DNA of 64,000 bases from NCBI GenBank assembly GCA_009829735.1, contig CM020619.1, forward strand, positions 1,990,590-2,054,589, written 5' to 3'. The translations under genes and the position numbers were made by a program. Of the stretch, positions 4,969 through 59,740 are shown piece by piece. Each line of letters begins with the position of its first letter. The stretch's first letter is position 1. Origin of the DNA: Pyropia yezoensis. Taxonomy: Eukaryota; Rhodophyta; Bangiophyceae; Bangiales; Bangiaceae. The notes below the pieces were generated by a model. The model was not told the origin of the DNA, did no database searches, and worked only from the letters and a program-made list of their open reading frames with translations.

Positions 4969-6031
4969 CGTATGAAGAGTGAAGGGAGGTGCGGAGGAGG
5001 AGCGGCTGAGAGGTGGGCGAATGGGGTCGAGCGAAGCACATGGGATGACACATTATCTGGAACTACCTGGGATCGGCCAATAGAGAGCGCTCTCAGTTGG
5101 TTGCAAGTGCCCGCTCCGGCCCGCTTGAAATGTGAAGTGTGAGCTGGGCTCCGCCAGGAGAAGCCCCACCAATGTCAAGTGTGAGATTGGCTCACTGGTG
5201 GGGAAGTCCGATGAGTTTGAAGTGTGATTGCGATGTAGCGAATAGTGTGATTTTGGTTGGATAAAAGGGGGACCGTCGCGCTCGCCCGGCCGTCCGATGG
5301 GGGTCTCGGCAGTCTTCTTCGTCATATTCACGATATCTCACTGTGAATAACTGACTGTCACTATCTGGTCAGCTGACAGTCGGATTAGCTGACAGTCAGA
5401 CTAGCAGTAACGTTTCGAAGTTGCTCATGTCTTTCCGTTTGTCAGTTTCTTTCGGCGTCAGACCGACTGCAGAGCCCCACTCGCTTGGTCACACTGGCCG
5501 TCACATTGGGCTTTGCTGTGGGCATGTTTGCTCTCCCTCGTGCGGTCGTGCAGGTTGTGCCTGCAGCGGCGGGCGGCGCCAAGGCCCCGCCTTCTCCCTC
5601 TTGTCGATGAGGGGCCGCAAAAGGCGGCTACCGCTACCGGCGGAGCTGCTGGCGGCGCGTGGCGATTGCGTCGCGGGCAGGTGGGGGCGAGACGAGGCCA
5701 GGGGGTGACTGGCTTGGGCGCCGCTGCCGAGGCATGCCTCTCTGGGGCGCTCCTTGGCCGGCGCCGCTTCTGGGCTGCCTCCCCTAGGGGGCGGCGGCTG
5801 CTCACCACGACTCCCAGGTTCGGGGCGTGCGCTGGCGCGGCTCGCCACCGCCGGGGCTCCCTACCTGTCGCGTCGCGTGCGCGGCCTTTATCTCTTCTCT
5901 TCGGCGGATATCTATGAGCGTGTGCCCCTGCGACGCATCCCCCGCCGCCGCCCCACATTCTCCGCTTCCCCCTCCTCCCGGTCGCCGTCCGTGTCGCTGC
6001 TCCGTTTGGACTGCGGGTCCCGCGCGGCGCC
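4969..6031. promoter_or_regulatory. Divergent intergenic region with GTGTGA motifs, a hairpin and a TATA-like box
   Basis: This lies between two divergently transcribed genes. Between about 5130 and 5250 the hexamer GTGTGA occurs four times, three of them preceded by (T)GAA or TCAA. CCCCACCA near 5166 pairs with TGGTGGGG near 5200, which could form a hairpin around one of these motifs. A TATA-like GGATAAAAGG lies near 5260 and points to the plus strand. At about 5350-5400 there are repeated and inverted copies of CTGACAGTC. The rest (5420-6030) is very GC-rich and is probably 5' leader. The functions are inferred from position only. Confidence 0.35.
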
Positions 6032-6784
6032 ATGGGGCTTCCGTGGGACTCGTCGCCCCGGTCCCCCCGGTCCGTAATGGGGCTGTACGGGGCGGCCGAC
6101 TCGTCCGACACGGAGGACGGGGGGTGTGACTCGCCGCTCGCGCACCCCGCCATTGGGTGGCTCCATACCATGGCGGACGTCTACAACGATGGCAACGTGC
6201 GCAAGACTGTGCGGGCGCTCCTTGAGTACGCGTCGGCGCAGTGGGACATGGAGGCTGTCCTCACGCGCCCGTCGTCGGCGTCGGGCGGCGCCGCGGCCGC
6301 GACCGACACGGACCTAGCGGCCTTTGACGGGGTCATCAGCACGGCCCACGGGGACTGGCTGTCCCGCATGGCCGTGCGGTACGGCCTGCCGTCGGGTGCC
6401 GCGGCGCTGCTGAGGCTGCTGGCGTACGGGGCCAAGTGTGAGGACCGGGCGGGCGAGATTTTCGGCATGGTCTGGCTCCGCCCTACCACCCTGACCGTGA
6501 TGGGCGATGTTGGGATGTACAAGGGCCTCCTCACGGCCGAGCCGTTGAGCTTTCGGCTGTCGCCCAAGGCGCTCTACTGTCATGTGGATGGGCCGCGCGG
6601 GGAGTCGCGCGTCGGGCAGGTAATCTCGGGCTCCCGCTGGGTTGTCTTCACGGCCAGGGAGGTGTGGACGGCCGGCTGGGCGCTTGCCCTGTCGGCCCGC
6701 ACTCAGCTGATGCAGTGGATGGCCAACGGGAGTGGCTTTTACACGGACTTACTGTTCAAGCGGGCGGACCGGTACACGTACTAG
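6032..6784 (+). CDS. Unrecognised protein, 250 residues
   Basis: I do not recognise the family. The frame is open for 250 codons and has a protein-like composition: acidic patches near the N-terminus, an Ala-rich stretch at about 95-105, and several aromatic segments in the C-terminal half. It is not low-complexity like the shadows around it. No clear membrane segment or signal peptide is seen. ATGs at 6032, 6077 and 6170 are all possible starts; 6032 is used because it gives the longest frame. No Cys/His cluster or nucleotide-binding motif is visible. It lies alone between the divergent promoter region and the starch synthase, which is transcribed towards it. Confidence 0.5.
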   Translation: MGLPWDSSPRSPRSVMGLYGAADSSDTEDGGCDSPLAHPAIGWLHTMADVYNDGNVRKTVRALLEYASAQWDMEAVLTRPSSASGGAAAATDTDLAAFDGVISTAHGDWLSRMAVRYGLPSGAAALLRLLAYGAKCEDRAGEIFGMVWLRPTTLTVMGDVGMYKGLLTAEPLSFRLSPKALYCHVDGPRGESRVGQVISGSRWVVFTAREVWTAGWALALSARTQLMQWMANGSGFYTDLLFKRADRYTY

Positions 6785-7329
6785 GTGCGCGTTCCATGCC
6801 ACCGCATGGCTGTCGCCGCACACACTCGCCCCCCCCCGCGCTTCACGTGGAGCTGCTGCTGCGCGGGCACCTGCGGTCCTGGGGGTTGCCATCAAGGCTC
6901 TTGGCTGCCGTTTGGGTGGCTCGTCACTGGTGTTCTTGGCGCTCGGCGATGCTGTCTACCCAACAGGACGGCCACATGTCCGAGAACAGACGGGCAACGT
7001 GGGGTCCCTTGGTTCTGCGTGATCACGCGCGACGGCCCGAGCACCACCGACGCGGCAGTCTGAGGACGCGAGGCGAGGAGCAAAGCCGGACCGGTAACGA
7101 CGGCTGATGCACAAGCATGCCGTAGCAGCCATGAGTCACGCCACTCCCCGAGCCATCATGAGGCGAATTTAATGTCCGGTCGCAGAGTAGCAAGCATACA
7201 CAGGCAAATAGAAAAACAAAACAACCCTAGACCCACACACGGCCCCCATCAAGCAACAACGAGGACAGAAGAAAAAACGGAGAAGAAGAAACGTGCGGGG
7301 GGGCTCTCCACATCGACCAGTAGCCCACA
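6785..7329. other. Intergenic, tail-to-tail gene ends
   Basis: 3' flanks of the plus-strand gene ending at 6784 and the minus-strand starch synthase ending at 7330. The stretch 7180-7290 is A-rich on the plus strand, hence T-rich for the minus-strand transcript. No gene or repeat is seen. Confidence 0.5.
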
Positions 7330-10300
7330 TCAAGATACCGAGAGGAGATTGTTGGTGAAAGCGCCCTCCCCTCTCGTGGGCAAGTCCTTGGCCAGCCCCC
7401 ACTTTCCGTCCACTTTGAACTTGAACTCGTAATCCCCAGGCGGAAGCCGCAGCCGCACCATGTGCTTCTCCACGGGCACACTTCCGTCGGCGGCCTCCTC
7501 CCCCCCTTCACCGTCAATCGGAGTGGGCCCGTCCGTCAGCGGCCACTCGCGAGCCCAGCCGTCCCAGGAGCCCTTGACAACCACATCCTCGCCCGCCGCC
7601 GTCCACCGCACAACGTGGACGGTGGCGGCAGGGTCCAGTGCCTCCGAGTCCTCTTCCACAACGGCATTTAAGTCCTCCCTGAAGATGGGCCGCCGCACGT
7701 AGATGCTGTTGCGCAGCCGATGGAACTCAGAGCTCCACGCCCACGCAGCATCCCGCACGTCGATGGCCGTCGTGCGGGTGGCACGACGAAGCTCGGCGAA
7801 CTCGTCCGGCTTGGAAAAGACCCGCAGCGCCCGCTTGACGGCGCCCAGGAAGTTATGATGATTGTACTCGTGGAAGAGGAAGCCGTTGCCGCTGCCCGAC
7901 TCAAGGTCCCACTCAAACACCGTATCCACGAGCCCGCCCACCGCGTGTGCAATGACGGGCGTGCCGTCGCCGGCACCCACAAAAGACTCAATTTGCCGCA
8001 GGCCAGCCGGCTCAAACAGTGACGGAACAAAGCCAAAGTCTGCCCCCGCGTCCACCAGCAAGCCGTCCGTGAAAAACTCCTCAGGCGCGGCCCAAAAGCA
8101 CCACTTGTGTCGGCGCGACAGGTCGCGCATGTGTCGCGCACACGCAGCGGCGTAAGGGTCGGCCTCGTTGGCAGGGCCGCCGACCAGGACTTGGATCTTG
8201 CCGCCAGTATGGGCAATGAGCTCGTCCACGGCGTTCAGGATGAGGTGCACACCCTTTTGGGAGGTTACTCGCCCCACAAACGCAAACAGAGGAATAGAGT
8301 GGTCCGCCGCGTTGAAGCCAAAGTACTTCTTCTGAACCATCTCCTTGGCCTGCGCGTGCGTTTTGATGTTGAGGGCCGCCAATGACGCCTCTCGCTCCTT
8401 GATCCGGATCCCGTTCGGGTAGGCAAACGGTGACTTGGCCATCGCCAGCAGGTTCTTGAGCGGGTGGCCGGCCAGCAGCTCCTTAAGATAGTTGGGCGAT
8501 ACCGTGCCCCACGTGTCGGACGTCATGAATGCACAGCGCGAAGGGTTGACAACCACCCGGGACCACCAGGGGTCTACCAGCAGATTCCTGGGCAGGCGGT
8601 GGATGACACCAAAGTCGCCCTCATGGGGGTTGGGGTAGACGCGGCCCTCGTACGCCGCATCGCCAAGGTTGTGCACCAGGTGAAAGAAGCTGGTGTTGTC
8701 AAAGTACGGTCCAAAGAATCCGTTCTTGGCATACCCCGCCGCCATACTCGGGAGCCAGTCGTTCGAAATAACGACCGACGGCACCAAGCCCGTCGCGCAG
8801 CACGCCTCAAGAGCGCCCATCGAGAACAGGACGACAGTCTGCAAGTGCTTGGCAGCGCCCCCTGGGTCAGCGTACACCTTGGGCAGAAGGTCACCCCGCT
8901 CTAAAAAGAGAAGGTTGACACCAGCCTCCTTGCCCTGGAAGATGCCTACCTCCACAACATGGGAGCCCAAGTCCACCTTGATGTTGCGCGTCCAACGAAT
9001 GTTGTCGCCTAGGTAGCCCGTCTTGTTCTTCCGATTGAGCGTGTAGTAGGGGGTGATGACGTGCACTTCCAGGCCAAGTGCAGCCAGCTCCTTCGCCAAG
9101 TCATCCACCATAACGCCAAGGCCACCGGCTGTAGAGAAACGACCCAGCTCTGGGGTGAGAAGCACGATCGGCCCAATGGCAGTGGCGTTTGCCAAGAGTG
9201 ACCGCGCCAGCGACTTCGTGTCGGGATTCGCCGCAGAAAGCGACAGCATGGCAAGAAAAGATACGAGGCGCTCACCCACAGGTGGCACAAAGTCCTTGGG
9301 TGCCACCGTCCCTTCGTACAAGACGGAGAATAGCAGCGACGACGCGCGCTGCAACCCAAGCTGCAGTACACGCCAAATCTCCGACGCTTCCAGGCCCTCG
9401 GCTGCGAGGCCACACCTGGCCTTCTCCAGCGCCGTCGCAAAAGCGGTAAGTGATGTAGCCGCCCCACGCGCGAGCTCCGACAGCACAGTGTTCTCGCGCG
9501 GGTCCTTGATATCCCCAGCGTCCTCCAGCGTCAACCGCGTGATCGACTGAGCGTAATGCTCCTCAGCCGACCCGTTGGGCTCCGCCCGCAACTCTAGCAC
9601 GGAAGAAGACATGGGCCTCAGGTGCAGTGACAGGCGGCGGAACATCAGTTCCTCCAGAGTCAAGAGGCCCTCCGTCACAAACGGTTCCTCAGCGCCGGCA
9701 ACCACGTCAAAGGCGTTGAAGAGGTCGGCACGGCGATTGATGAACTCCTCAGGCAGCGCCGACCACAGGGGCCGCAAGTCCAGGTCAACATTGACGCCTG
9801 CCTCAAATGCCTCTCCGTCGCGCCCGTCCTTGAGGTTCAGCGCCACAAGAACTATTTGATCAGTGGTGAAGCGGGCAAACGCAAACACCTGCTCCTTCAC
9901 CGACGGGTCTACGGGCACCACAACCATCTTACCAAGGCGCAGTGCCGGCAGCTGCTGCCGCATCAGCGAACGGTGAGTGTAGTGGCCACGAATCTGAGAC
10001 AGGTCAAACCCCAGCTGCGGCCCAATCTCGGCCCTCAGCCGAGCCTCCTGGTCCGCAATGGCCATCAGGTCGCTGGCGCCCACGCCGCGCACGGCAAGAC
10101 GCTTGCCCTCGTCCGTCGTTTGGCTCCGCACAAGCGACGACACGGACGAAGTGCGGCGCACGCCAGATGTGAGTGTCTTGGCCTTCGAGGCCGCCGCCGG
10201 GGCGGCCCCCCCAGTGGCTCGACTGGCCGATGCATCCCGGCCGGGAGACGACGGCGGCGCGTTGGCCGCGGCGGCGAGGTTGCCAAAGCTAGGCTTCCGA

Positions 10301-12627
10301 CCGCCCATGGACATGGAGCGCAGGTTCAGGCTCGAGTTGGAGCGCTTGCGCATGCCGGTGCCAACACCACCCAGACCGCGGCCGCCGCCTGCAGTGGTGG
10401 CATTGGCTGTCACCGCTGGGGGTGGAGGTGCAGCCCCGCCAGCAAGCCCATCCATAGGGCTCACCGACGCGGACTGAGAAGAGGAATAGGGAGGTGCCCG
10501 GAGGCCACCGCTGCTCGAAGCCGAAACGGTCATCGCTGCTTCACCCAGGGACAGCTCCGACAGCTCGTGACTGGCATTTGCGAGTCCGGCGGATGGGGAC
10601 ACGGGCTGCGATCCCGAGTGTCGCAGACGAGGGCTCTTGGGCAGCACCGCGTCGTAATTGACATCGTACACGGAATCCTCCTCCACTTCTACCACCGGCG
10701 CCATGTCCACCCGCAGAGCCCGGCCCGCATCCTCCCCCCACAGCAGCACCGGCATGTGGGGCAGGAAGAAGAGCAAGTCCACAGCAATCCACGACCGCCG
10801 GCGATAGAGGGCGCCTGGGTAGGGGGACGCGTGCGTGCACGTGCATGATGCGAGGATGGCGTCGCGAGGTAGGTCGGCCTGATCGGCTCGGTACAGCCGC
10901 GCGAGGGTATTCGCGGTGGAGCGCTTGTGCGGCGGCAGCACCGCCACCGACCCGTCCCGCCGGAGGGACATCCCTGAGATGGACGCCAAAATCTGCGATA
11001 CACGCATGCTGTGAGGCACCACCCCCGAAGCAACCAGTTGGGGCTCACGGTGAAAGTGGCTTTCACCGAGCACCATAAACGTCGGGTACTCGTTCCAGAG
11101 CTCGCGAGTGAGCTTAACCAGGAAAGGGTTGGCGTAGCCACAGTCGGCCCCCGCTTCGCTCGCCCAGTAGCCGCTTTCCTCGTTGCGCAGCACCACCGTC
11201 CCGTACAGGATGTCAGACAGGGAATAGTGAGGTACGCCGTCAGGGTCCAACCGAAAGAGTTCTTCCGCATCCATCGTCATGATGGGGGGACACGATTGGG
11301 CATTGTCCAGTCGGATGCCTCGCACCCCGTAGTCCCGCGCAAGGCGCTTCACCTCGGAAATGAGCAGCGCCCACGTCTCCACCTTGCGGTAGTTCAGCAG
11401 CGCCGACTCCTCCCACGTGATCACCCGCCCATCCGTGCCTGGGTGGGAGACCAGTACGCCCCGCTCGTCACGCGTCATCACCCCAAGGGACGTATACTTG
11501 CGGTGCGCTCGCCGCCGGGAGACTCTCTCAATGGCGTCCACAATGGGCACCATGCCCAGCCGCCGGATCTCTGTCGTCAGCGACGCAAAGTCCTCCCCAC
11601 CGCCGAGTACCTTGGCGAGCACGCCCCGATCCGCTGCCGCCATGGGCGGAGCATCGGGCTCGTCAATCGGGCGCTCGAGGGCGCCCATCAGGTACACAGC
11701 AGTTGCGCCCGACATTTTCAGCTCGGGCAACGTCTCCAGCACAGCCGAAAAAGAGCCCCGGGTCTCCAGCTGGCCAGTCCCTGCGTTCCACGACGCGCCC
11801 ACCTGGTCCACCGGCACCTCGGCAACGAGTGACTCCCGCGTGCCCGCCGGCTGCACGACAAAGCGGCCACACAAACGGCGCCGGTCTATGTTGCTCAAGG
11901 GGTCGGCACCACCCGCGCCGGAGGTGCCACTGTCGGCGGCGGCACCGCCCTCCCCATTTACGGCTGCCGCCGGCGCAGCGCCCGTGCTTGCCACCGACGG
12001 GTCCGGGGGCGAGCTCCGGTCCGTGTCGGGCTTGAAGTCTCCGTCAGCCGCGTGCGCGACGAGCCAGTCGTAGTAGCCAGGTCGGGGAAACGGGGGAAGC
12101 CGGACGCGGAGCCCCCCCCCCGCCGTCGACGTGACTGCATGGGTCGTCCACCGCGGAGGGCGACCCGCGTCGACAGGCCCAAAGAGGCGCAACGTGAGGG
12201 AGCCCTTTGGCAGCACCGTCGGTTGAGTGGGATCCGCCTGGGGCAGGCTAAGGCGAACGACAGGGGCCTCCCCAACTGAAGATACGGCCGGCGTCAGCGC
12301 GTTCTCCAGCTGCATCGCATGCCCATCGTAAAGCACATTGAGCAGCACCACCGCCGCCTCTCGCACCGATGCATGCAAGTTGCCGAGCGCGGCGATGAGC
12401 GTCGCCTCAATGACCGTCACCACATCGGGGCAACGAGCGTAAGACGTGGCCTGCGCATCAAGCAGCGCCGCCTGGACGTCGGCCATCGCGTCGGTAGCCA
12501 CGGCCGCATCACGGGTGGTCAGGCCCTGCGCCCATTTTTCCGCCCGCCGCCGCGTCGCCACCGACGGCTTTGCTTGGCCCGCGGGCGCTGGGCTGCCCCC
12601 ACCACTGCCAAGGCGAGATACTACCAT
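7330..12627 (-). CDS. Floridean starch (alpha-glucan) synthase: GH13-like + GT5 + C-terminal starch-binding domain
   Basis: A 1765-residue single-exon protein that extends alpha-1,4-glucan chains. Red algal GT5 starch synthases are known to use UDP-glucose and to act in the cytosol. A beta-rich N-terminal part (about 120-260) precedes a GH13-like barrel (about 295-640) with D441 in IRLDNAQS and E522 in LGESHF. The wording of these motifs recalls glycogen debranching enzymes; I could not place a third catalytic Asp. A Ser/Gly/Pro-rich linker (about 650-850) splits the barrel from its beta domain (about 870-1010). The GT5 domain covers about 1153-1640, with TAGGL at 1166-1170 and FEPAGL around E1539. 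The C-terminal module (about 1668-1763) has VVVKGSWDGW and GDYEFKFKVDG, typical of CBM20/CBM48-like starch-binding domains. The Lys of the usual KxGGL motif is Thr here. There is no membrane segment, unlike fungal alpha-1,3-glucan synthases of the same GH13-GT5 order. The start is the first ATG, with in-frame support throughout. Confidence 0.93.
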   Translation of the reverse strand: MVVSRLGSGGGSPAPAGQAKPSVATRRRAEKWAQGLTTRDAAVATDAMADVQAALLDAQATSYARCPDVVTVIEATLIAALGNLHASVREAAVVLLNVLYDGHAMQLENALTPAVSSVGEAPVVRLSLPQADPTQPTVLPKGSLTLRLFGPVDAGRPPRWTTHAVTSTAGGGLRVRLPPFPRPGYYDWLVAHAADGDFKPDTDRSSPPDPSVASTGAAPAAAVNGEGGAAADSGTSGAGGADPLSNIDRRRLCGRFVVQPAGTRESLVAEVPVDQVGASWNAGTGQLETRGSFSAVLETLPELKMSGATAVYLMGALERPIDEPDAPPMAAADRGVLAKVLGGGEDFASLTTEIRRLGMVPIVDAIERVSRRRAHRKYTSLGVMTRDERGVLVSHPGTDGRVITWEESALLNYRKVETWALLISEVKRLARDYGVRGIRLDNAQSCPPIMTMDAEELFRLDPDGVPHYSLSDILYGTVVLRNEESGYWASEAGADCGYANPFLVKLTRELWNEYPTFMVLGESHFHREPQLVASGVVPHSMRVSQILASISGMSLRRDGSVAVLPPHKRSTANTLARLYRADQADLPRDAILASCTCTHASPYPGALYRRRSWIAVDLLFFLPHMPVLLWGEDAGRALRVDMAPVVEVEEDSVYDVNYDAVLPKSPRLRHSGSQPVSPSAGLANASHELSELSLGEAAMTVSASSSGGLRAPPYSSSQSASVSPMDGLAGGAAPPPPAVTANATTAGGGRGLGGVGTGMRKRSNSSLNLRSMSMGGRKPSFGNLAAAANAPPSSPGRDASASRATGGAAPAAASKAKTLTSGVRRTSSVSSLVRSQTTDEGKRLAVRGVGASDLMAIADQEARLRAEIGPQLGFDLSQIRGHYTHRSLMRQQLPALRLGKMVVVPVDPSVKEQVFAFARFTTDQIVLVALNLKDGRDGEAFEAGVNVDLDLRPLWSALPEEFINRRADLFNAFDVVAGAEEPFVTEGLLTLEELMFRRLSLHLRPMSSSVLELRAEPNGSAEEHYAQSITRLTLEDAGDIKDPRENTVLSELARGAATSLTAFATALEKARCGLAAEGLEASEIWRVLQLGLQRASSLLFSVLYEGTVAPKDFVPPVGERLVSFLAMLSLSAANPDTKSLARSLLANATAIGPIVLLTPELGRFSTAGGLGVMVDDLAKELAALGLEVHVITPYYTLNRKNKTGYLGDNIRWTRNIKVDLGSHVVEVGIFQGKEAGVNLLFLERGDLLPKVYADPGGAAKHLQTVVLFSMGALEACCATGLVPSVVISNDWLPSMAAGYAKNGFFGPYFDNTSFFHLVHNLGDAAYEGRVYPNPHEGDFGVIHRLPRNLLVDPWWSRVVVNPSRCAFMTSDTWGTVSPNYLKELLAGHPLKNLLAMAKSPFAYPNGIRIKEREASLAALNIKTHAQAKEMVQKKYFGFNAADHSIPLFAFVGRVTSQKGVHLILNAVDELIAHTGGKIQVLVGGPANEADPYAAACARHMRDLSRRHKWCFWAAPEEFFTDGLLVDAGADFGFVPSLFEPAGLRQIESFVGAGDGTPVIAHAVGGLVDTVFEWDLESGSGNGFLFHEYNHHNFLGAVKRALRVFSKPDEFAELRRATRTTAIDVRDAAWAWSSEFHRLRNSIYVRRPIFREDLNAVVEEDSEALDPAATVHVVRWTAAGEDVVVKGSWDGWAREWPLTDGPTPIDGEGGEEAADGSVPVEKHMVRLRLPPGDYEFKFKVDGKWGLAKDLPTRGEGAFTNNLLSVS

Positions 12628-18095: not shown

Positions 18096-19382
18096 ATGCG
18101 TGTCGATTTAGCCTCGACCTCGGTGGGCCATTTACAAACACTCCTACCCGATGACGATGGCAGTGGTCTCCTCCGCGACAGACGCGCGGCCATGTACCCC
18201 CGGGCCTGTCAGACTGCCGCTACAGCGCACGCCATCACCGTAGCGGCCACCATGTATAGTAGGCGCGGGTTGTTTGCTTCTCCTCCCCCTGTTGTAAACA
18301 TCCCTATTACTGTGGAGGATGTGCAGGCCCGCTACGGTGCCAACTGCGCCCGCGCAATGCGGATGCCGGCAGACGCTGTCGAGAGCTTGGTGGCTGTTTT
18401 GCGCCCCCACCTCCCGCGCCGCGGACTGTCCCCACTGTGTCGCACGGCTCTGGCGCTCAGGTACTTGGGCGGCGGCGGCTATGTGGACATCTGCGCGGTT
18501 TTTGGTGTCCACCCTGCCACGCTCTACCGGGCGCTCTGGGAGGTGATCGATGCCATCAATGCCACCCCAGCGCTGGATTTTGACTTCAGGTTGAGCAGCC
18601 GAGACCGACGGCTGGATTACGCGGGTGGCTTCCAGCGCCGTCGGGGGATCCCGTTTGGGCATGTGATTGGAGCTTTGGACGGCGTCGCGATACGCCAGGA
18701 GCAGCCTCTGCCGTCTGACGTCCAATGCGTCGCGGATTACTACTCAAGGAAGGGCTTTTACTCGTTCAACGCCCAGGCGATCTGCGACGCCGATTACAAG
18801 TTTCGGTGGATGAGCTGCATGAGCCCTGGTGCTGCCCATGACTCGACAGCGTTTGCCTGCACGCGACTTGGTCGGACGTTATTGGACCCTGTCCACGCGC
18901 TGACGGCGGCTTTGATTGCCGACGGCCATTGCATTGTGGCTGACGAGGCATATGCTGCCAGCGAGATATTGGCCGTACCTTGGCCAAGCGGTGGGCGAGG
19001 TGACCGCAGGAAGGATGGTTACAACTTTTATCAGTCATCAAGCCGCATCCACATCGAGCAAGCCTTTGGCATGCTTTCGTGGCGATGGGGTGTGTTTTGG
19101 CGCCCTTTGCGTGTGCCTTTTCCCAAGAGACCGAGCCTCGTGCGTGCGTGTTTTCGCTTGCATAACTTTTGTCGGGGCGACGCTTCTGCAAGGAACTGTG
19201 CCCCTGGGCCGTGGGGTAACGACCAAGTTGGGGGTCAAGCGTCATTCGCTCCGACAGATATGGTCGGTCCTGACCAACATGGGCGCCGCCGGGACCGTGA
19301 GCGTTCTGACCTGAGGGTTAGAATGACGCGCGGAGTGGAGGATATGGGGCTGCTTCGCCCGGGTGTGGGGCCTATGTTCTGA
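18096..19382 (+). CDS. PIF/Harbinger (HARBI1-like, DDE_Tnp_4) transposase
   Basis: A 428-residue protein that would cut and rejoin the element ends. A helix-turn-helix-like segment at about 115-150 (LALRYLGGGGYVDICAVFGV) is followed by the DDE nuclease core. The triad is D195 in GALDG, D283 in VADEAY and E321 in HIEQAFGML. The supporting signatures YYSRKGFYSFNAQ, PGAAHDSTAF and W-RPL after the Glu are also present, so all landmark positions of an active enzyme are there. The C-terminus (about 365-428) is polar and variable, as usual. ATG 18096 gives the full frame; ATG 18192 is an alternative start nearer to the conserved part. It converges with the SAP/Myb gene on the other strand and lies entirely between the element's inverted repeats. 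Confidence 0.9.
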   Translation: MRVDLASTSVGHLQTLLPDDDGSGLLRDRRAAMYPRACQTAATAHAITVAATMYSRRGLFASPPPVVNIPITVEDVQARYGANCARAMRMPADAVESLVAVLRPHLPRRGLSPLCRTALALRYLGGGGYVDICAVFGVHPATLYRALWEVIDAINATPALDFDFRLSSRDRRLDYAGGFQRRRGIPFGHVIGALDGVAIRQEQPLPSDVQCVADYYSRKGFYSFNAQAICDADYKFRWMSCMSPGAAHDSTAFACTRLGRTLLDPVHALTAALIADGHCIVADEAYAASEILAVPWPSGGRGDRRKDGYNFYQSSSRIHIEQAFGMLSWRWGVFWRPLRVPFPKRPSLVRACFRLHNFCRGDASARNCAPGPWGNDQVGGQASFAPTDMVGPDQHGRRRDRERSDLRVRMTRGVEDMGLLRPGVGPMF

Positions 19383-42474: not shown

Positions 42475-42509
<35 letters not shown>

Positions 42510-45079
42510 CGCCGCCCGCCGCCGCCACCGGCGCTGCGGCAGCCGCCGGGAGCGGCGGTGCGCCGTCTCCCGCCGCGCGGCGGCGGCGCCGCGAGCCCCC
42601 CCACCAGACAGCACGGCAGGGGGGGAGGAGCGACGGGGGGGAGGGCCGCCCCGCCGGGGCGGCCGCCGGCGGCCGCCGTCGCGGTGGCCGTCCCACCCCG
42701 CCAATGTGCGCACGTGCCCGTACCGGGGGGGGGGCGGGGCGGCGGCGCGCAGGCCACCGTGGCCTGCGCGCAGTGACTGGGCGCCCGGGGGGCTGGGTGG
42801 GCAGGCAGGCGGCGCGGGTATCGGGGATGGGCGGAAGAGGGAGAGGGGGGGGGGGGGGTGGGGGGGGGGGTGGGAGCGATAGCACGCCCACGAGAGTGGG
42901 CGGGCGAGGACGCCCCGACCGCGCACGTGCGGGCAGGTGGGAGGGCGGACAGGCGGGGGGGGGGGGGGGGCAAAGAGGCGGGCGGGCGGGCGGGCGGGCG
43001 GGCGGACAGGGTCTTGTGGGCGGCCGGCCGGCCGGCCGGCCGGGTGGGGGCGGCAGGCAGGGCGCACGGCGTCAGTCCCTACGAGCCGTGGGGCGGCGGC
43101 CACCCAGGGGGGGAGGGGGGAAGGAAGACGAGCCCCGCCGTTTGCGGGGTGGCCCCGCCGCGCCGCCGCGCGCCGCCGCGGCAGGGGCGGCCCGCCGGCC
43201 GCGCGCCCAACCGCCGCCCCGCCCACGGGTCGGGTAAGCGGCGGCGAGGCGGGGGGGCGTCTTGGCGTCTGGCCGCCCCATCCCCCCCCCCCCCCCCCCC
43301 AAGGCCTGGTCGTTGACCGAGCGGCCGTGGCGGGTCGGCAGGGGCGGCCGGCAGCCAGCCATGGCGGGCAGGCAGGTGACGGCAGCAGGCAGGCAGCACT
43401 GGCGTCAGCGCACTCTCCCCCCCCTCCCCCCCCCCCCCCCCCCCCCTCCTCCTCCTACCCACTCACTCCTCCCACTGGGCGACTCAACCCCCACCGACGG
43501 CGCCACGGCGCGGGTGCGCGGGGGTGGACGCCCCCCCCACGGCGGTGCAGCAGCAGGCAGCGCCGGGCGGGCGGTGGGGGGAGGCGGGCAGCCCGTGTCT
43601 GGGCACGCAGCCCCCCTTGGCGTGCCGCCGGGGGGAGGAGCCCCGCCTCGTCCACGGCGGGTCTCATTTCCCCGACCCGCCCCCCCCCCCGCCGCACCTC
43701 CCCATGGGGAAAGGAGCAAGGGCGGGGCGGGGGGGTGGGCAGGCAGGCAGGGAGACTGCTCCGCCGCTGGCCATCTGCCGCGCGGCGGGGCGGGCAGAGG
43801 CAAAAAAAAAAAAAGAAAAGGGCCACCCTCCTCCCGCACCCACCCCACCGCCGAGCACGGGGGGGGGGACTGCCGGCGCCGTGCACCCGCCGCCTGGCAC
43901 AGAGACTGGCATGGATGGGGGGGTGGGGAGTAGGCGGGCGGGCGGGCGGGTGGGAGTGGAAAGGGGGGGCAGCAGCAATGCAGAGCGGGATGGAAAAACA
44001 CAGAGGGGGGGCGGGGAGGCCGGGAGGAGTGGGGGAGGGTGGGGAGGGTGCGGCGGGAGGAAGAGAGGGGGGGGGGGGGGTCGCCCGTTTCGGCAAGATG
44101 AGCGCGGGGCACCGGCCGAGACCCGTCCGTGAGCCGCGCGCGGGGTCTGGCCGGGCGCCCCCCGCCCCGCGCAGCGGGGCTGGCCACCACCCGCTGCCCC
44201 TCACGCCCCACTCTCCACCCCCCCCCCCCCCCCCCCCCCCGTCCGTGTCCCCCCTGTTGGCGTGTCCATCATGGACCGTGATGGTGGTGTGGGTGGGGAA
44301 GAGATGGGGGTGGGGTGGGGTTGGGTGGGGTTGGGGTGGTGGGGGGGGGAGCGGAGGGGGGGTTCCCGTGGCTTGGGGCAGCCGTCGAGCTCAAGAGAGA
44401 AAAAAAGAGAAGAAAAAAAAAGAAGTTTGAACGGCCGGTGGGAGGGGGAGGGTGGGGAGGTCAGAGAAAGGGAGGGAGGGAGGGGGGGGGGGGGGGGTGG
44501 GGGTGGGGGGGGCGGGAGGGGAGGGGGAAGACAGCCCCACTGTCCGACACTCGCCCGCCCGCCCCGCCTAGCGATGGGGGTACGTCACGCCCAGGGCCAA
44601 CCCACAACGGACCGTGCGCACGTCAGCCCACGCGCAGAGGAGGAGCGCCAGTGCCGTCCGAGGGCGGCGGCCGGCGGATCCGCCCACCCCCGCGGGCGCA
44701 GGCACCCAGTGGCCCAGCCGCGGGCGGCAGCACCCCCCCCCCACCCCCACCACCGCCACCGCCACCGCCAACAACAACAACAGCTGCCAAAGCGAGGCGG
44801 GGGGGGGGGGGGGGGGAAAGGGCACACGACGGGAGGAGGGAGGGGCACCACCGGGGGGGGCAAGCGCGCCACGCGGCTGGGCAACGCGGCCGCCGGGGGC
44901 GCGGCCGCTGGGGGGGGGCGGGAGCGGTGGCCTCGGCGGCCGGGGTGGGGCGCCCACGCGGCACCATTGCGCCGCCGCCCGCCGCTGCCGGCAGGGCCGC
45001 AGGGCGGGCCACGGTCACGTTTGCAGCGTCCACGGTAAGTCAACCGTGGCAACGGTGGGGGTGGGAACCCCACCCACCC

Positions 45080-48280: not shown

Positions 48281-49461
48281 CTACGACGGGGGACGCGATG
48301 ACCCAGCCTTGACCTCCGCCGCGGCCGTCTCTTCCCGCCCCTTCTTCCACAGCGCCTCTAGCTCATCGGGCGCAGGCGTCAGGTCAGTGTATAGACCCGT
48401 GTCGCCGGGGTCGGCCCGCATTGACACCAGCTCCAAGTCAATCACGACGAGCCCGTTGCCTGACGGTCGGGCACCCCACAGAAGCAGAGCGCCACTCACC
48501 ACCGAGGCAAGGTGCACCACCAAGAGGAGAGAACCGCAGGCACGCCCACCACAGAAAGGAATGTCTCGGCGGGTGAGTACGTGCACAGTCGGACGATCCA
48601 CAGCCCAGCGTAAACAGCTGCCTCCCGCTCCCTCTCATCACCTCGGCTCCTATCCCCACCAGCCATACCTTCATTGAGGGTCTTGTTGAGCGCCCGCCGC
48701 GTGGTCGTCCGTGGCGGCACAGGCCCGAGCCCCGAGTTGGTGTAGCCCAGCGCCGGCGGGATCACAACCCTACGACGCCCGCCCACTCGCATCCCATGAA
48801 GCGCCTCCTCCACCCCAAGAATGGTCTGCCCGTTCCCATGGTGTATGAGCATATTCTTGTTGCGAGCGTAGGTGCTGTCAGCCACGTCAAGGCGGTCACC
48901 TGACGGGCTGACCGTGTAAAGGACGTACGAGACGGTGAGGAGGTCGCCCCACGCGGGAGGACGGTCTCCGTTGCCGACCTTGAAGTCAAAGTAGCGCAAG
49001 CCACTCTTGGTGACAAAGCCCGTCTCCGGGGGCGTGTTGTCTTCGCGGCGTGCATTGGTTGTCGTCGGGCCAACGGCGGGGGAGGAGGGGCCAGCCGCGG
49101 CGGCCGGAGGAAGGAGGCCGGGAGAGCCCGCGTCACTCGCCAAAGCAGCAGCAACCACACCGAACGCAGCCGTGGCAAGGCGGGTAAGCAAGATGCGACG
49201 GCCCACAGGGGTTGAGGCCGATGTCGAAGGGCGCGAGAACGCCGGAACGTCCCCCGACGCTCGTACAGGTGTCACGGCGGGACTACAAGCAGGCACCACC
49301 GTCGCACCCCACCCAAAACGTGGACAGAAGCTACAACCACGGGGGCGATGGGGGAGAGGCGGCCGCACGTACACAGTCAGGCGGGCAGGGCGAACGGCGC
49401 GGGCCACGGCGGGTGTCTGGCGGTGGCCGCCAATGCCGACCGCAGACGTCACAAACGCCAT
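48281..49461 (-). CDS. FKBP-type peptidyl-prolyl isomerase, thylakoid-lumen type, two exons
   Basis: Exon 1 is 49461-48669 and exon 2 is 48459-48281. The 209-bp intron starts GTATGG and ends GTCAG, and the joined frame has 323 codons. The FKBP domain (about 148-278) starts GFVTKSGLRYFDFKVGNG, has GVEEALHGMRVGGRRRVVIP, and closes with GLVVIDLELVSM, which lies only in exon 2; this supports the splice. FKBPs catalyse cis-trans isomerisation of Xaa-Pro bonds. The N-terminus is a bipartite targeting sequence: a Ser/Arg/Pro-rich plastid transit part, then a twin-arginine type lumen signal (GRRILLTRLATAAFGVVAAALA, R88-R89) ending near an Ala-rich cleavage region. It would act on thylakoid lumen proteins, probably in photosystem assembly (inference). 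The ATG at 49461 is chosen because the transit peptide begins there; upstream codons look like leader. Confidence 0.9.
48460..48668 (-). other. Spliceosomal intron in the FKBP gene
   Basis: Donor AAG|GTATGG, acceptor GTCAG|GC, 209 bp. Removing it joins TLNEG to NGLVVIDLEL in frame, restoring the C-terminal strand of the FKBP fold. Confidence 0.85.
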
Positions 49462-50217
49462 TTCCTGGGGCAGCGTCAGCCGAGGAAGTGTGGATGAAAA
49501 CGACCTTGCGGGGAAGGGTGTGAAGAAGAACGACGAGCTGGCGCGGACTGAGGCGGCTGTTGTCAAGGGCTGGAACTGGAGCGGGGCGTTGAGTGGCGGA
49601 GTCATCGACCTGGCCCGCGCTGAGATTGGGCCGCAGGTCGAGTATTTGGAAACGAATACTTGTAACGAAAGACAGAAACAATTCTGGTCCATAGGTGATG
49701 TTAGGGTCACCAAAGTCACGTCACTTCTTGAGGATTCCAGAACAGCCTCTTTTTCTCACTTCGTCGTCAGCTCTTGGCGGCTTGACGTGCCCACTGTCTC
49801 CTCCAAAGACGCATTGTCTGACGAACAGCAGCTCCAAGATAAGGTTATGGCTTCAGTCGGTCTCTGCGTGCGACCTCAGCGAAGAAAACATCAAGGGTCG
49901 CCACCTCTGCTTTAATGGACTCGGCCGCAAGGTCGTTCGCAGCCAACAGCCATACTCCGCACGTTAATGCCCCTCTATCCGGCGCTGCAACGAACACACT
50001 GTTCTGTGCGCATGGGTATGGGTCCTAGAACTCCTGTATCTCTCTGCAGTCACCATAGGTAAACATCCCACTCCAGGACACGGCTTACTAACTCGTGTCT
50101 TCTGCGAACTCCACAGGAACCCTATAAATATGATTTATACGCAGGAATGCCGTAGATAGGCAAGTTGTGTCCGGTGGAGCAAGCAACAGGCAGGTTTTCT
50201 CTCCAATTTGAGCATAC
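49462..50217. other. FKBP 5' region and lower-GC intergenic DNA
   Basis: The first 250 bp are the likely promoter and leader of the FKBP gene. From about 49650 the composition is close to balanced. No gene is seen. Confidence 0.4.
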
Positions 50218-50227
50218 TATAATAATA
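50218..50227 (+). promoter_or_regulatory. TATA-like box upstream of the tRNA gene
   Basis: TATAATAATA lies 23-32 bases before the first base of the tRNA. An upstream TATA at this distance is used by tRNA genes of several algae and plants. Confidence 0.5.
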
Positions 50228-50249: not shown

Positions 50250-50349
50250 GCTCTGGTGGCTTAGTTGGTTTCTTCGTCAATGAAAGCGTCAGATTGTTAA
50301 TCTGAAAATCGTGAGTTCAAGAGAGTTGTAGAAAGTCTCACCCGGAGCG
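50250..50349 (+). tRNA. tRNA-Asn (anticodon GUU) with two inserts: 12 nt in the D loop and 14 nt in the T arm
   Basis: The acceptor stem GCTCTGG (50250-50256) pairs with CCGGAGC (50342-50348), and the discriminator is G. The D stem GCTT/AAGC encloses A14, G15, G18, G19 and A21, but 12 extra bases (about 50271-50282) sit before A21. The anticodon stem TCAGA/TCTGA is perfect and the loop TTGTTAA gives GUU with T33 and A37. The variable loop AAATC gives C48 to pair with G15. The T stem GTGAG/CTCAC encloses TTCAA, then a 14-base insert whose edges can slide (50321-50334 or 50323-50336). Without the inserts the RNA is 74 nt and fits every conserved position I checked. The A box TGGCTTAGTTGG is a perfect match. 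The inserts are probably introns at non-canonical positions, as known in Cyanidioschyzon tRNA genes. A decayed tRNA is less likely, since all stems are perfect apart from one G-U pair in the acceptor stem. Confidence 0.85.
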
Positions 50350-50356
50350 ATCTAAC

Positions 50357-50361
50357 TTTTT
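50357..50361 (+). terminator. RNA polymerase III T-run terminator
   Basis: TTTTT begins eight bases after the discriminator base of the tRNA-Asn gene. Confidence 0.75.
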
Positions 50362-55750: not shown

Positions 55751-58700
55751 ATGAAGCGGGTTGCTTCACGCTCACCGACCCATGGGAGAGTGAAGGTCCT
55801 GACTCGACCTCGAGGGGTGAGACCTAGGGACAAGGCCCCTCCTCAGAAGCACGACCCGAGTCGGATTGTGTCAGTGCTGGTAGGGAGTAACTACCAGGTC
55901 GCAGCTCGACTCTGGCTGCAGGATGGATATGAGTTTACCTCTCGTGTCATAGTCGACACAGGCTCTGCTGCCTCTCTCATTAGGCAAGACTTATTGCCAG
56001 AGGGGACGGATGTGAGCCCCGCCGGCTCACCCGAGTGGCGTATGTTTGATGTCAATGGGGGACTCCTCCCCATTGTTGGGTCTATTGCATTGACTGTTTG
56101 CATTGGGTTCTACCAGACGCAGGTGAACTTTGGAGTAGTCTCCAATATGTCAGTCCCCGTACTCCTGGGAACTGACTATCTGGACCTCCATGTCCCGGCC
56201 GTCTGTGGACCGGAAGGGATAATCCGAATGCGTAATGGAGAGACTGTCCCCATATTGCGTAAAGGGAGGACTGTTTCCCCTACGACTCATCAACCTAGGG
56301 AAAACTCTCCCAAGGGTGGAGGCTCTACGACCCATGTACGAGTATGTAAGGGTACGGTAGTCCCGCCCCGATCAAGGACCTTTGTGCGAGTACGCACACG
56401 GTTTCGAGGGAATGGACTTGTTTCCCCCGTGGACCGAGTCTATTATACTCACCAAGTGCAAGTTGCTTGGGGCCCCATGACTTGTGGGGATGACCAAACC
56501 TGGTGGGTGGAGGTCCTCAACACGTCGGAGGAACCTCGACGACTCCCCGGAGGCATGAAGATTGCGTCGATCTCTACCTTTGAGGGGAATGTCGTTGCTG
56601 TGACTCAACAGCAATGGAAGGATATTGGAACGGCAGGCTCTGCCGACCAATCGAGTTCATCGACGGCTAAGTCGCCGACGGTACATCGGGAGAACATCCC
56701 GGAGTGTTTACATGGACGACTGGATGAGTTAATCCAGAAGCATCACAAGTTGTGGAATGGTGACCTTGGGCTCATCAAGGCCACCGAACACAGAATCGTG
56801 TTGAAGCCAGGGGCTAGGCCAGTTCGCCTGAGTCCCTACCGTATGGGACCAGACTCACGGGAACTCACCCGAGAGCAGGTCCAACGGATGCAAGACATGG
56901 GTGTCATTGAGCCTTGCTCAAGTGAGTGGGCCAGTCCCATAGTCTTGGTGCCCAAGTCAGACGGCACGATGCGGTTCTGCATCGATTATCGTAAGCTAAA
57001 CGAGCGGACGGTAAGGGATAGTTACCCCTTACCCCGTATGGACGATTGCCTTGACTCACTCGGTGAGGCACAGTACTTTTCCACGTTGGACTGCAACGCG
57101 GGGTACTGGCAGATACCCATCCGCAAGGAGGACAGACACTTGACCACCTTCACGTGTCACTGTGGAGTTTATCAGTGTACACGGCTCCCTTTTGGGCTTT
57201 GCAATGCACCTGCGACTTTCCAGCGTGCTATTGACTTGATACTTGCCGGAGTCAAGTGGCAGATCGCCCTGGTGTATCTGGACGATATCATTGTGTTCTC
57301 CGGGACTGCCGAAGAACACTTGTCCCACTTGGACAGAGTGTTTACCCTGTTGGGTGAAGCAGGAGTAACACTCAAACCTACGAAGTGTCACCTCTTTAGT
57401 AATGAGGTGGAGTACCTCGGCCATATAGTCCGGCCAGGTCGCATTCTGGTCAATGAGAAGAACCTCATGGCCATCCGTCGGGCGAAGTTCCCCCAGACGC
57501 AGACACAACTCAGGAGCTTCCTGGGTATGTGTAACGTATACAGACGCTTTGTGGCGAACTATGCCAAAGTGTCTGCACCGTTGAACCACTTGGTAAGTTC
57601 CAAGATGCCCAAGCGCTTGGATGCTCCCAAACCCCCGGAGCAAGAAGCGTTTGATAGGTTGCGAGAGCTCCTCTGCAACCCACCGGTGTTAGCGATCCCG
57701 AGACCGGGGGCTCACTACATCGTTGATGTGGACGCAAGTTACGACCAACTCGGTTGTTGCTTACTCCAACAACAGCCTTCGGGGGAGTATTTACCCGTTG
57801 GCTATTTCAGTAAGGGACTCTCACCCGCCCAGAAGAACTATTCTGTGACGGAGGTAGAGGGTCTTGGCGTGGTATGGGCAGTCTCCATGCTACGGCCATA
57901 CATCGAAGGAAGGAAGTTCCTCATTCGATGTGACCACAAGGCTTTGAAGTGGATACTCACCACTACAGCCTGTACGAATAACCGACTCAATCGATGGCGA
58001 CTCTGCCTCGCTGAGTTCGATTATGATGTTGAATATCGGCCAGGCCCGAAGCATGCGGTTGCGGACGCGTTGTCTCGCATACCGACGGATGGGAAAGACA
58101 CTTCCCCTATCCCTGAGGAACTCCCTCATGTGGCAGTGACCACTCGCTCCGGAACTGTCCTCGACCCGAGGATGCCTGGCATGGCCAAATTATTACCCGT
58201 GTCTTTGGATGAGTTTGTCCAGGCACAGGAGAGCGACAAACTTTGTCGACGACTCAGGAAGGAGCTCGACCAGGCTCAACCGACTCGGTTCTTCCTGAAT
58301 GACAACGGCATACTCTGCCGTAAGGGATATACCCAGGGGGACAAGCAAGTCGTCGTCCCCAAGGAGTTACGCAAGAGTATCCTCCAACGGGAGCACTCCT
58401 CACCGTTGGGTGGACACCCAGGGTCTACGAGGATGTATCAGACCCTACGTAAGAAGTACTATTGGCCATCACTCGTGGCTGATGTGTACGGATATGTAGC
58501 CGCATGCGCGACTTGCGCAAAGAATAGACTCATGGAGTCCCGGCAGACTTCTTCCATGAGACTCTTTCCTGCAACAGAGCCGTTTGCAGCGATAGCAGTG
58601 GACTTACTCGGTCCACTACCACGAACACCTGAAGGATATGAGTACCTTCTGGTGATGTGTGATCGCTTCACTAAGCTCACACGGGTATCCCCACTCAAGG

Positions 58701-59740
58701 ATATCACAGCCGTGGACGTTCTGAGTGAGTTACTCGACGTCTGGGTTGCCAGTTATGGCATCCCCGACTCTATCCTTTCGGATAACGGACCACAGTTTGC
58801 GTCCGTCCTGTATCAGGGAGTCATGAAGATGTTGGGGGTGCAGACGAACTTCGCCACCCCTTACCATCCCCAGACTAATGGGCAGGTGGAACGATTCAAC
58901 AGGACTCTAGTGCGCCAGTTGCGTCACTATGTCCATGACCATGTAGTCACATGGGCTCGTTATGCGTCACTACTCGTGACAGCATACAACTCCCAGGTAC
59001 ACAGTAGTACGGGAGAGGCACCGTTTGCCTTCGTCTGCCCCCGACGACTTCCGTCAGTAGCTGTGGAGCGTCTCACCCAGACTGAGGGTGAGACTTCGAC
59101 TCAAACACCGAGACAGGCGAAAGCCTCCCTACTCCAGAGACTGGAGGAGATGATACCCCTTGTCCGGGCTACTATGGAGAAGGCCCAAGCCCGTTACAAG
59201 AGGTACTTCGATGTCCGAGTCAGACATCGTCGCGATCCGCTCCGAGTTGGAGATTGGATTTATGTTAACTCCCACGACAATAAGGGAGGGAAATTGGTCT
59301 TCAAGACTCTGGGACCATATCACATCCTTAAAACGGATGGACGTCGGTTAACCATCGAGAGTGATGATGGTATCCGGACAATAAATGGGAATCACGCGAC
59401 TCGCGCACCCGAACCCCCAGAGGGAGATCCCGCTTGGGAAAGGGCTTTGCAAGCATGGAAAGTCCCATCCTTGCCGACCTCTTCCAATAAGCCATTGGAG
59501 GCGGTGTTCGACAAGTTTGTCGGGCACGGATATGATGAGTCGGGGCGACTCATGCTCCGAGTCAGGTGGTTCGGGTATGGACCAACTTCCGACACATGGG
59601 AGTTTGTAGAGGACCTACCAGTAGAGAAGGTCCGTAGATACTGCCAGACTGTGGGCATATCTATACGCCGACGTAGCACTCGTACGTCGGGGGATGAAGT
59701 CCCTGCTCCAAGTCAGAGCAGAGCGGCAAGCCAACCATGA
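55751..59740 (+). CDS. Pol of the Ty3 element: protease, reverse transcriptase, RNase H, integrase, chromodomain
   Basis: 1329 codons with the Ty3 order. The aspartic protease has IVDTGSAASL at about 66-75. The reverse transcriptase has YLDD at about 508, preceded by RFCIDYRKLNERT and FSTLDCNAGYWQI. RNase H starts at about 657 (VDVDASYDQLG). The integrase has its HHCC zinc region at about 880-925 and core residues in AVDLLGPLP, SDNGPQFAS and NGQVERFNRTL (about 950-1050). A C-terminal chromodomain lies at about 1250-1295 (GRLMLRVRWFGYGPTSDTWE), which targets chromoviruses to marked chromatin. Domain content is complete for the family. Confidence 0.92.
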   Translation: MKRVASRSPTHGRVKVLTRPRGVRPRDKAPPQKHDPSRIVSVLVGSNYQVAARLWLQDGYEFTSRVIVDTGSAASLIRQDLLPEGTDVSPAGSPEWRMFDVNGGLLPIVGSIALTVCIGFYQTQVNFGVVSNMSVPVLLGTDYLDLHVPAVCGPEGIIRMRNGETVPILRKGRTVSPTTHQPRENSPKGGGSTTHVRVCKGTVVPPRSRTFVRVRTRFRGNGLVSPVDRVYYTHQVQVAWGPMTCGDDQTWWVEVLNTSEEPRRLPGGMKIASISTFEGNVVAVTQQQWKDIGTAGSADQSSSSTAKSPTVHRENIPECLHGRLDELIQKHHKLWNGDLGLIKATEHRIVLKPGARPVRLSPYRMGPDSRELTREQVQRMQDMGVIEPCSSEWASPIVLVPKSDGTMRFCIDYRKLNERTVRDSYPLPRMDDCLDSLGEAQYFSTLDCNAGYWQIPIRKEDRHLTTFTCHCGVYQCTRLPFGLCNAPATFQRAIDLILAGVKWQIALVYLDDIIVFSGTAEEHLSHLDRVFTLLGEAGVTLKPTKCHLFSNEVEYLGHIVRPGRILVNEKNLMAIRRAKFPQTQTQLRSFLGMCNVYRRFVANYAKVSAPLNHLVSSKMPKRLDAPKPPEQEAFDRLRELLCNPPVLAIPRPGAHYIVDVDASYDQLGCCLLQQQPSGEYLPVGYFSKGLSPAQKNYSVTEVEGLGVVWAVSMLRPYIEGRKFLIRCDHKALKWILTTTACTNNRLNRWRLCLAEFDYDVEYRPGPKHAVADALSRIPTDGKDTSPIPEELPHVAVTTRSGTVLDPRMPGMAKLLPVSLDEFVQAQESDKLCRRLRKELDQAQPTRFFLNDNGILCRKGYTQGDKQVVVPKELRKSILQREHSSPLGGHPGSTRMYQTLRKKYYWPSLVADVYGYVAACATCAKNRLMESRQTSSMRLFPATEPFAAIAVDLLGPLPRTPEGYEYLLVMCDRFTKLTRVSPLKDITAVDVLSELLDVWVASYGIPDSILSDNGPQFASVLYQGVMKMLGVQTNFATPYHPQTNGQVERFNRTLVRQLRHYVHDHVVTWARYASLLVTAYNSQVHSSTGEAPFAFVCPRRLPSVAVERLTQTEGETSTQTPRQAKASLLQRLEEMIPLVRATMEKAQARYKRYFDVRVRHRRDPLRVGDWIYVNSHDNKGGKLVFKTLGPYHILKTDGRRLTIESDDGIRTINGNHATRAPEPPEGDPAWERALQAWKVPSLPTSSNKPLEAVFDKFVGHGYDESGRLMLRVRWFGYGPTSDTWEFVEDLPVEKVRRYCQTVGISIRRRSTRTSGDEVPAPSQSRAASQP

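Follow-up and report, generated by a model that had tools for sequence, protein, structure and literature searches.

The 100 nt at positions 50250 to 50349 on the forward strand of the window, which is the whole 64,000-nt stretch of Pyropia yezoensis DNA that was analysed, are most likely, judging from the sequence, a real tRNA-Asn(GUU) gene that carries two real ectopic introns and is one among many genes of this kind in the genome. With high confidence we regard it as a working nuclear gene with two short introns of the bulge-helix-bulge (BHB) type, both outside the anticodon loop, that would be excised by the tRNA-splicing endonuclease. The assignment was made from the sequence itself, from a genome search, and with a cloverleaf scanner in which inserts are allowed. 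Exon 1 (50250-50270, 21 nt) runs from the 5' strand of the acceptor stem to nucleotide 20a and contains the A box. It is followed by a 12-nt intron in the D loop at site 20a/21 (50271-50282), by exon 2 (50283-50321, 39 nt), which covers nucleotides 21 to 59 with the anticodon and the 5' strand of the T stem, by a 14-nt intron in the T loop at site 59/60 (50322-50335), and by exon 3 (50336-50349, 14 nt), which covers nucleotides 60 to 73. All of the stems that the first-pass annotation of this DNA had described were confirmed, namely, an acceptor stem of 7 bp with one G-U pair, a D stem of 4 bp, an anticodon stem of 5 bp with the anticodon GTT, and a T stem of 5 bp, and so were its two inserts, one of 12 extra bases directly before A21 and one of 14 in the T arm, the latter now placed in the T loop, where it separates nucleotides 59 and 60. 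The TATA-like box and the TTTTT that it had reported were located on the same strand, the former at 50218-50227 (TATAATAATA, -32 to -23), where its function is presumed, and the latter at 50357-50361, where it is the presumed Pol III terminator. This gene is the only mismatch-free match of the scanner in the 64-kb window, and when the window was shuffled in 500-base blocks, none of 1000 such versions contained a mismatch-free cloverleaf. The gene has no insert at 37/38 and is thus not in the canonical single-intron arrangement. Group I and group II introns were considered and rejected because the inserts found in this genome, at 11 to 44 nt, are too short for a catalytic core.

The count of Asn-GUU genes that had been proposed as a check on the annotation was carried out by genome search, and it returned five Asn loci including the window gene. 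Three of the others, L001, L032, and L033, have all 74 of the 74 exon bases as in the window gene, and each exon is therefore the same in four Asn genes. L001 is without inserts, L033 has an 11-nt T insert alone, and L032 has a different 14-nt insert at the D site and a 16-nt insert at the T site, the same two sites as in the window gene. Removal of both inserts from the window gene gives a 74-nt product that is identical to L001. The introns, on the other hand, are little alike (9 of 14 aligned columns between the D introns, and 8 of 16, 8 of 14, and 6 of 16 among the T introns), and the flanks have no similarity outside the gene bounds. That the exons are identical amid diverged introns and unrelated flanks implies that selection acts on the product without the inserts. 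The earlier claim of two ectopic introns is supported by the identity of the predicted spliced product with the intronless paralogue and by the two Asn genes in which other inserts occupy the same site or sites between identical exons. The existence of an intact intronless Asn-GUU gene means that the window gene need not be indispensable.

The assembly that was searched has 107,475,971 bases in 11 contigs. Loci were taken from the Rfam tRNA family, with which 63 of 1453 first-look candidates were scored, and from searches for Asn, Lys(CUU), Asp, Glu(UUC), and Gln(UUG) genes; since the listing is of 63 among 1453 candidates, a genome-wide proportion of interrupted genes cannot be derived from it. 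At least 29 whole tRNA loci with 11 anticodons carry ectopic inserts, and every one of these inserts is at 20a/21 or 59/60. The loci are for Asn (3), Asp (10), Glu (2), Gln (1), Lys(CUU) (6), Lys(UUU) (1), Arg(UCG) (1), Arg(ACG) (1), Ser(CGA) (2), Val(UAC) (1), and Trp (1). Inserts at 20a/21 are present in 14 loci and inserts at 59/60 in 18, three loci having both, and the inserts, which are 11 to 37 nt long in the D loop and 11 to 44 nt in the T loop, are conserved neither in sequence nor in length. In Lys(UUU) the T insert is accompanied by a second insert at 37/38, and inserts at 37/38 were also found in Val(CAC), Thr(UGU), and Ser(GCU). Among the 63 scored candidates, Thr(AGU), Thr(CGU), Val(AAC), Gly(GCC), and Ala(UGC) are examples without an ectopic insert. 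Intact intronless copies were returned for Asn (one, L001), Lys(CUU) (one, L008), and Trp (at least one, L023). A run of four or more Ts lies within 40 nt of the 3' end in all 30 whole genes, that is, the 29 interrupted genes and the intact Asn gene, as compared to 8.2% of random windows. Three genes, Arg(ACG), Trp, and Gln, were parsed by eye, the insert in Gln being longer than the scanner allows; Arg(ACG) and Trp have two mismatches each in the D stem, which are common to the intronless Trp gene. The uniformity of the sites is partly built in because the scanner looks for inserts at three places, namely, from GG to A21, within the anticodon loop, and downstream of A58. The sequence searches (5 Asn, 7 Lys(CUU), 24 Asp, 2 Glu, and 1 Gln loci) are less subject to this bias, and they gave no insert at any other site in the D or T arm. 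Both sites appear to be just 3' of the internal promoter boxes, the A box at nucleotides 8 to 19 and the core of the B box at 52 to 58, and this may be why inserts are tolerated there.

Some further observations were made on these loci. The six Lys(CUU) genes with D introns, of which there are three variants, lie within 117 kb (G000:C3:12654877-12771752, L024-L029), and the sole intronless Lys(CUU) copy that was returned is on C1, away from this cluster. An odd tRNA-like sequence that resembles Thr(UGU) and adjoins a partial self-repeat (L066, G000:C1:9299464-9299536) is not among the loci parsed as cloverleaves. All parsed loci are in the normal order, with no permuted gene among them. A query with a plant initiator tRNA had no match in the genome, which carries no weight regarding permuted genes.

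An alternative is that the interrupted copies are dead tRNA genes that have acquired short insertions, as is usually concluded for insertions in the D or T arm of eukaryotic tRNA genes. This view has some basis: in the accessible part of one review, insertions in the D and T arms elsewhere are said mostly to affect a single gene out of many synonymous ones and are supposed to mark pseudogenes (PMC4090602), an intact Asn gene does exist, and among the Asp-like loci the 5' end has truly been lost in 14 of 24. It is nevertheless very improbable for the whole loci. The exons of four Asn genes are identical despite differing introns and flanks, the insert sites are common and the inserts pair in a BHB register as described below, a run of at least four Ts is within 40 nt at 29 of 29 whole interrupted loci, and the Asn copy that has decayed (L035, which differs at 5 of 74 bases and lacks a T run after its 3' end) is one without inserts. 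All 24 Asp-like loci that were returned carry an ectopic insert: ten are whole (seven with the T insert only, two with the D insert only, and one with both), and in 14 a foreign sequence stands in place of the first seven bases while the T insert is kept. T inserts are likewise present in both Glu(UUC) loci and in the single Gln(UUG) locus. Thus, no intronless gene for Asp, Glu(UUC), or Gln(UUG) was among the 24, 2, and 1 loci returned by the family searches, of which the Asp search reached partial copies with as few as 39 matching bases. Unless an intronless tRNA-Asp gene was missed by the search, decoding of Asp codons would need excision of an ectopic intron. We therefore dropped the pseudogene reading for the whole loci and kept it for L035, for a degraded Thr locus (L046), and for the 14 Asp loci with replaced 5' ends.

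Those 14 Asp loci point to a possible element targeted to tRNA-Asp, for in each of them a sequence ending in ACCGCCAATTAAAC (ATTAACC in two) is joined to nucleotide 8 of the tRNA. The copies joined to it differ from each other (loci L087, L050, L057-L059, and L068-L077). At L087 (G000:C1:32052000-32060000, positions 126-8001) a whole and a truncated tRNA-Asp are 7353 bp apart, and a 517-bp repeat with 99% identity begins exactly at nucleotide 8 of the tRNA and reaches the end of the examined stretch. The element may carry nucleotides 8 to the end of tRNA-Asp at its own 5' end and in this way spare the upstream gene. An ORF within the element at L087 has a weak match to a reverse transcriptase (RVT_1, E 1.7e-4), which is below the cut-off.

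In a BHB the cuts fall between the second and third nucleotides of the bulge. The motif is a 4-bp helix between two 3-nt bulges (PMC3978253, in its accessible text). For introns at 20a/21 and 59/60 this geometry requires that nucleotides 16 to 19 or 54 to 57, respectively, pair with a stretch of four insert bases whose end is two bases short of the 3' boundary; one bulge is then made up of two exon nucleotides and one insert nucleotide and the other of two insert nucleotides and one exon nucleotide, so that the splice points are inside the 3-nt bulges. The D boundary was placed just before A21, with its 5' side taken from a paralogue without the D insert where there is one, and the T boundary after nucleotide 59. 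In this register 37 of 40 pairs are formed by the ten distinct D inserts and 44 of 56 by the 14 distinct T inserts. The central helix, which is the only part of the motif that was scored, is complete in seven D and five T introns and relaxed in the others, with three pairs in three D and six T introns and two pairs in three T introns. Shuffled inserts gave means of 19.6 (D) and 23.1 (T) pairs, and none of 200,000 shuffles reached the observed values; the best alternative registers gave 24 and 31 pairs. This pooled test is not wholly independent because the register was first spotted by eye on five T introns and on the D introns of Asn, Trp, Arg(UCG), and Lys. When the introns outside this set were taken by themselves, the nine T introns had 27 of 36 pairs (0 of 200,000 shuffles) and the three D introns had 12 of 12 (100 of 200,000). 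In an earlier set, to which two Asp loci with replaced 5' ends also belonged, 8 D inserts had given 29 of 32 pairs and 14 T inserts 43 of 56. The three Lys(CUU) D introns each miss one pair, and the two Asp D introns have four pairs if the exon ends in GTGGTA, as taken from the paralogue L053, and two if it ends in GTGGT. The two Asn D introns differ in the bases that they use, TCAA in one and CCAG in the other, and both form four pairs. In the T arm the loop strand of the central helix is nearly invariant, and hence covariation cannot be tested there.

In the window gene, TTGG at 50265-50268 (nucleotides 16 to 19 in the D arm) pairs at all four positions with TCAA at 50277-50280, which ends two nucleotides before the 3' splice site of the D intron. 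In the T arm, TTC at 50316-50318 (nucleotides 54 to 56) pairs with GAA at 50331-50333, which likewise ends two nucleotides before the 3' splice site, giving three of four pairs with A57 mismatched. The first-pass annotation had instead suggested helices of TTTC with GAAA at the D insert and of GAGA with TCTC at the T insert; these are not the pairings common to the other introns, which are TTGG with TCAA and TTC with GAA. The minimum-energy fold of the window precursor contains the D helix, whereas the T arm is mispaired in it as the GAGA/TCTC hairpin. At -22.5 kcal/mol the BHB cloverleaf is, in this energy model, 6.4 kcal/mol less stable than the minimum of -28.9 kcal/mol.

Six-frame searches of the genome found two PF01974 genes, one Sen2-like (L049; E 5e-10 with solved Sen2 chains) and one Sen34-like (L048; 5.7e-15 with Sen34), and a PF12928 gene that is closest to Sen54 (L067; 4e-7). 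An RtcB-like ligase is represented by two adjacent matching pieces that are probably two exons. The Trl1-type ligase domain PF09511 had no match in the genome, and no positive control matched it either. We propose that Pol III would transcribe the window gene, that an endonuclease with Sen2 and Sen34 would cut the precursor at the bulges of the BHBs, that a ligase, for which the RtcB-like gene is a candidate, would join the exons, and that the 74-nt tRNA-Asn would then mature normally. The sites would be recognized through the BHB and not through the distance ruler used for introns at 37/38, as has been proposed for C. merolae. The suggestion made with the first annotation that ectopic tRNA splicing exists in this lineage is supported by the 29 loci, the 11 anticodons, the BHB register, and the genes for the SEN subunits and the ligase, although excision itself is inferred.

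Removal of the inserts by some other nuclease, or by a mechanism independent of the BHB, is equally improbable as the pseudogene explanation. The weak central helices, with two of four pairs, in three of the 14 T introns would fit it, and so would the many ectopic introns of the Guillardia nucleomorph for which PMC3978253, in its accessible sections, describes no defined BHB. Against it are the pairing, which is specific to one register overall, and the presence of the Sen2-, Sen34-, and Sen54-like genes. Retention of the inserts in the mature tRNA is the least credible alternative because, even though the stems around the inserts are intact and sequence data alone would be compatible with enlarged loops, a 21-nt D loop and a 21-nt T loop would disturb the contacts between these loops that belong to established tRNA structure, the inserts vary in sequence and length and are absent from some paralogues, and the BHB pairing would lack a reason. 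We therefore favor splicing at BHBs by the tRNA-splicing endonuclease.

As predicted in the first-pass annotation, standard finders miss the window gene: ARAGORN made no call, and the Rfam model gave none at its gathering cut-off and, at a relaxed cut-off, a match of 22.4 bits, as against 29, with a wrong 3' end. With the 29 interrupted loci, ARAGORN made no call in 23 and called a wrong tRNA or wrong ends in six, whereas the isotype and anticodon were correct in four intact controls. The Rfam model at its cut-off matched 13 of the 20 interrupted loci that were tested, several with truncated ends. The sole ARAGORN call in the window, a Gly(ccc) at 42509-42588 on the reverse strand, appears to be a false positive; the stretch there is repetitive and has a GC content of about 80%. 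Interrupted genes may help to explain gaps in the tRNA inventories of red algae that were made with standard finders, and two surveys may bear on this. In one of them a red alga is coded Pum, which we take to be Porphyra umbilicalis. As given in the accessible text of that survey, Pum has 56 tRNA genes, the fewest of 50 species, and is among the top three species for the share of tRNA genes that contain introns (PMC12652284). In the other, a tRNAscan-SE survey, the accessible text gives 97 to 165 tRNA genes for multicellular red algae, which is above most unicellular ones, and tRNA-Ile in only two unicellular red algal species (PMC10496412).

The window has a GC content of 54 to 80% per 4-kb block, which is consistent with the 65% given for the P. 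yezoensis genome in the accessible text of PMC7423979. A long ORF at 55751-59740 on the forward strand has reverse transcriptase, RNase H, and integrase domains and is a retrotransposon polyprotein, and an ORF at 18096-19382 on the same strand has a DDE_Tnp_4 transposase domain. On the reverse strand, an ORF of 1765 amino acids at 7330-12627 is starch synthase-like with a glycogen-binding domain, its closest named relatives being from red algae (Chondrus crispus with 67%, then Porphyridium and Galdieria), and near the tRNA-Asn gene there is an ORF at 48496-49719 for an FKBP-type isomerase.

This kind of intron is already known from Cyanidioschyzon merolae. As far as the reviews are accessible, tRNA introns are found there in the D and T arms, several per gene, at 12/13, 37/38, and 53/54 in tRNA-Ile and at 14/15, 37/38, and 55/56 in others, and the junctions of permuted genes are at 20/21, 37/38, 50/51, and 59/60 (PMC9602550, PMC3978253); the ectopic and multiple introns were reported by Soma et al. 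(2007, 2013), as reviewed in PMC3978253 and PMC9602550. In the accessible part of the table in another review, C. merolae is the sole eukaryote listed under multiple-intron tRNAs (PMC4033280). P. yezoensis resembles C. merolae in that both are red algae with short introns in the D and T arms, two in some genes, with BHBs or BHB-like motifs and with homologues of Sen2, Sen34, and Sen54. It differs in that the ectopic inserts found are solely at 20a/21 and 59/60 and not at 12/13, 14/15, 53/54, or 55/56, although the C. merolae sites are known here from accessible parts of reviews and introns at 20/21 or 59/60 may occur there too. The permuted genes of C. merolae offer another comparison because the BHB junctions of types I (20/21) and IV (59/60) are essentially at the intron sites of P. 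yezoensis. In P. yezoensis, however, the exon order is normal with no reversed halves among the parsed loci, and Thr(AGU), Thr(CGU), Ala(UGC), and Lys(UUU), which are permuted in C. merolae, are in normal order.

Excision of ectopic introns has been described for C. merolae and for a nucleomorph in the accessible text of PMC3978253, PMC4090602, and PMC9602550. This nucleomorph, the relict nucleus of Guillardia theta, is of red-algal descent and also has short introns in the D and T arms, with excision confirmed by RT-PCR according to the accessible part of the review; unlike those of P. yezoensis, its introns are 3 to 24 nt long (Kawach et al. 2005, cited in PMC4090602 and PMC3978253), many are without a defined BHB, and its genome is strongly reduced. 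The ectopic introns of crenarchaea are similar in having BHBs, in lying outside 37/38, and in being several per gene in some species, but they belong to Archaea with an endonuclease of archaeal architecture (PMC3978253, accessible text). Among the matches listed in a literature search of titles and abstract openings, with subscription papers mostly outside it, none described ectopic introns of nuclear tRNA genes for Pyropia, for Porphyra, or for any other red alga outside the cyanidiophytes, and the word tRNA is absent from the main text of the P. yezoensis genome paper as far as that text is accessible (PMC7423979).

In eukaryotes, ectopic tRNA introns have so far been regarded as an oddity of a single extremophile and of relict nuclei. 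Their presence across many tRNA families in a seaweed that is multicellular, cultivated, and a member of a distant red algal class indicates an old trait of red algae. A wider proposal, which we put forward tentatively as possible rather than probable, is that red algae share an old splicing system that acts at 20a/21, 37/38, and 59/60 and reads the BHB instead of a ruler, that the seaweed depends on it for tRNA-Asp, and that permuted genes could derive from tandem intron-bearing copies in which the outer halves were lost and the BHB of the intron became that of the junction. This derivation is suggested because the type I and type IV junctions of C. merolae coincide with the two ectopic sites. 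The P. yezoensis introns, which are natural and some of which have intronless sisters, offer a clean system for studying how SEN chooses sites away from the anticodon and also how permuted tRNA genes originated. As compared to C. merolae, then, three features seem to be new, as read from the genome: the lineage, the uniformity with which 20a/21 and 59/60 are used, and an apparent reliance of all Asp tRNA on splicing.
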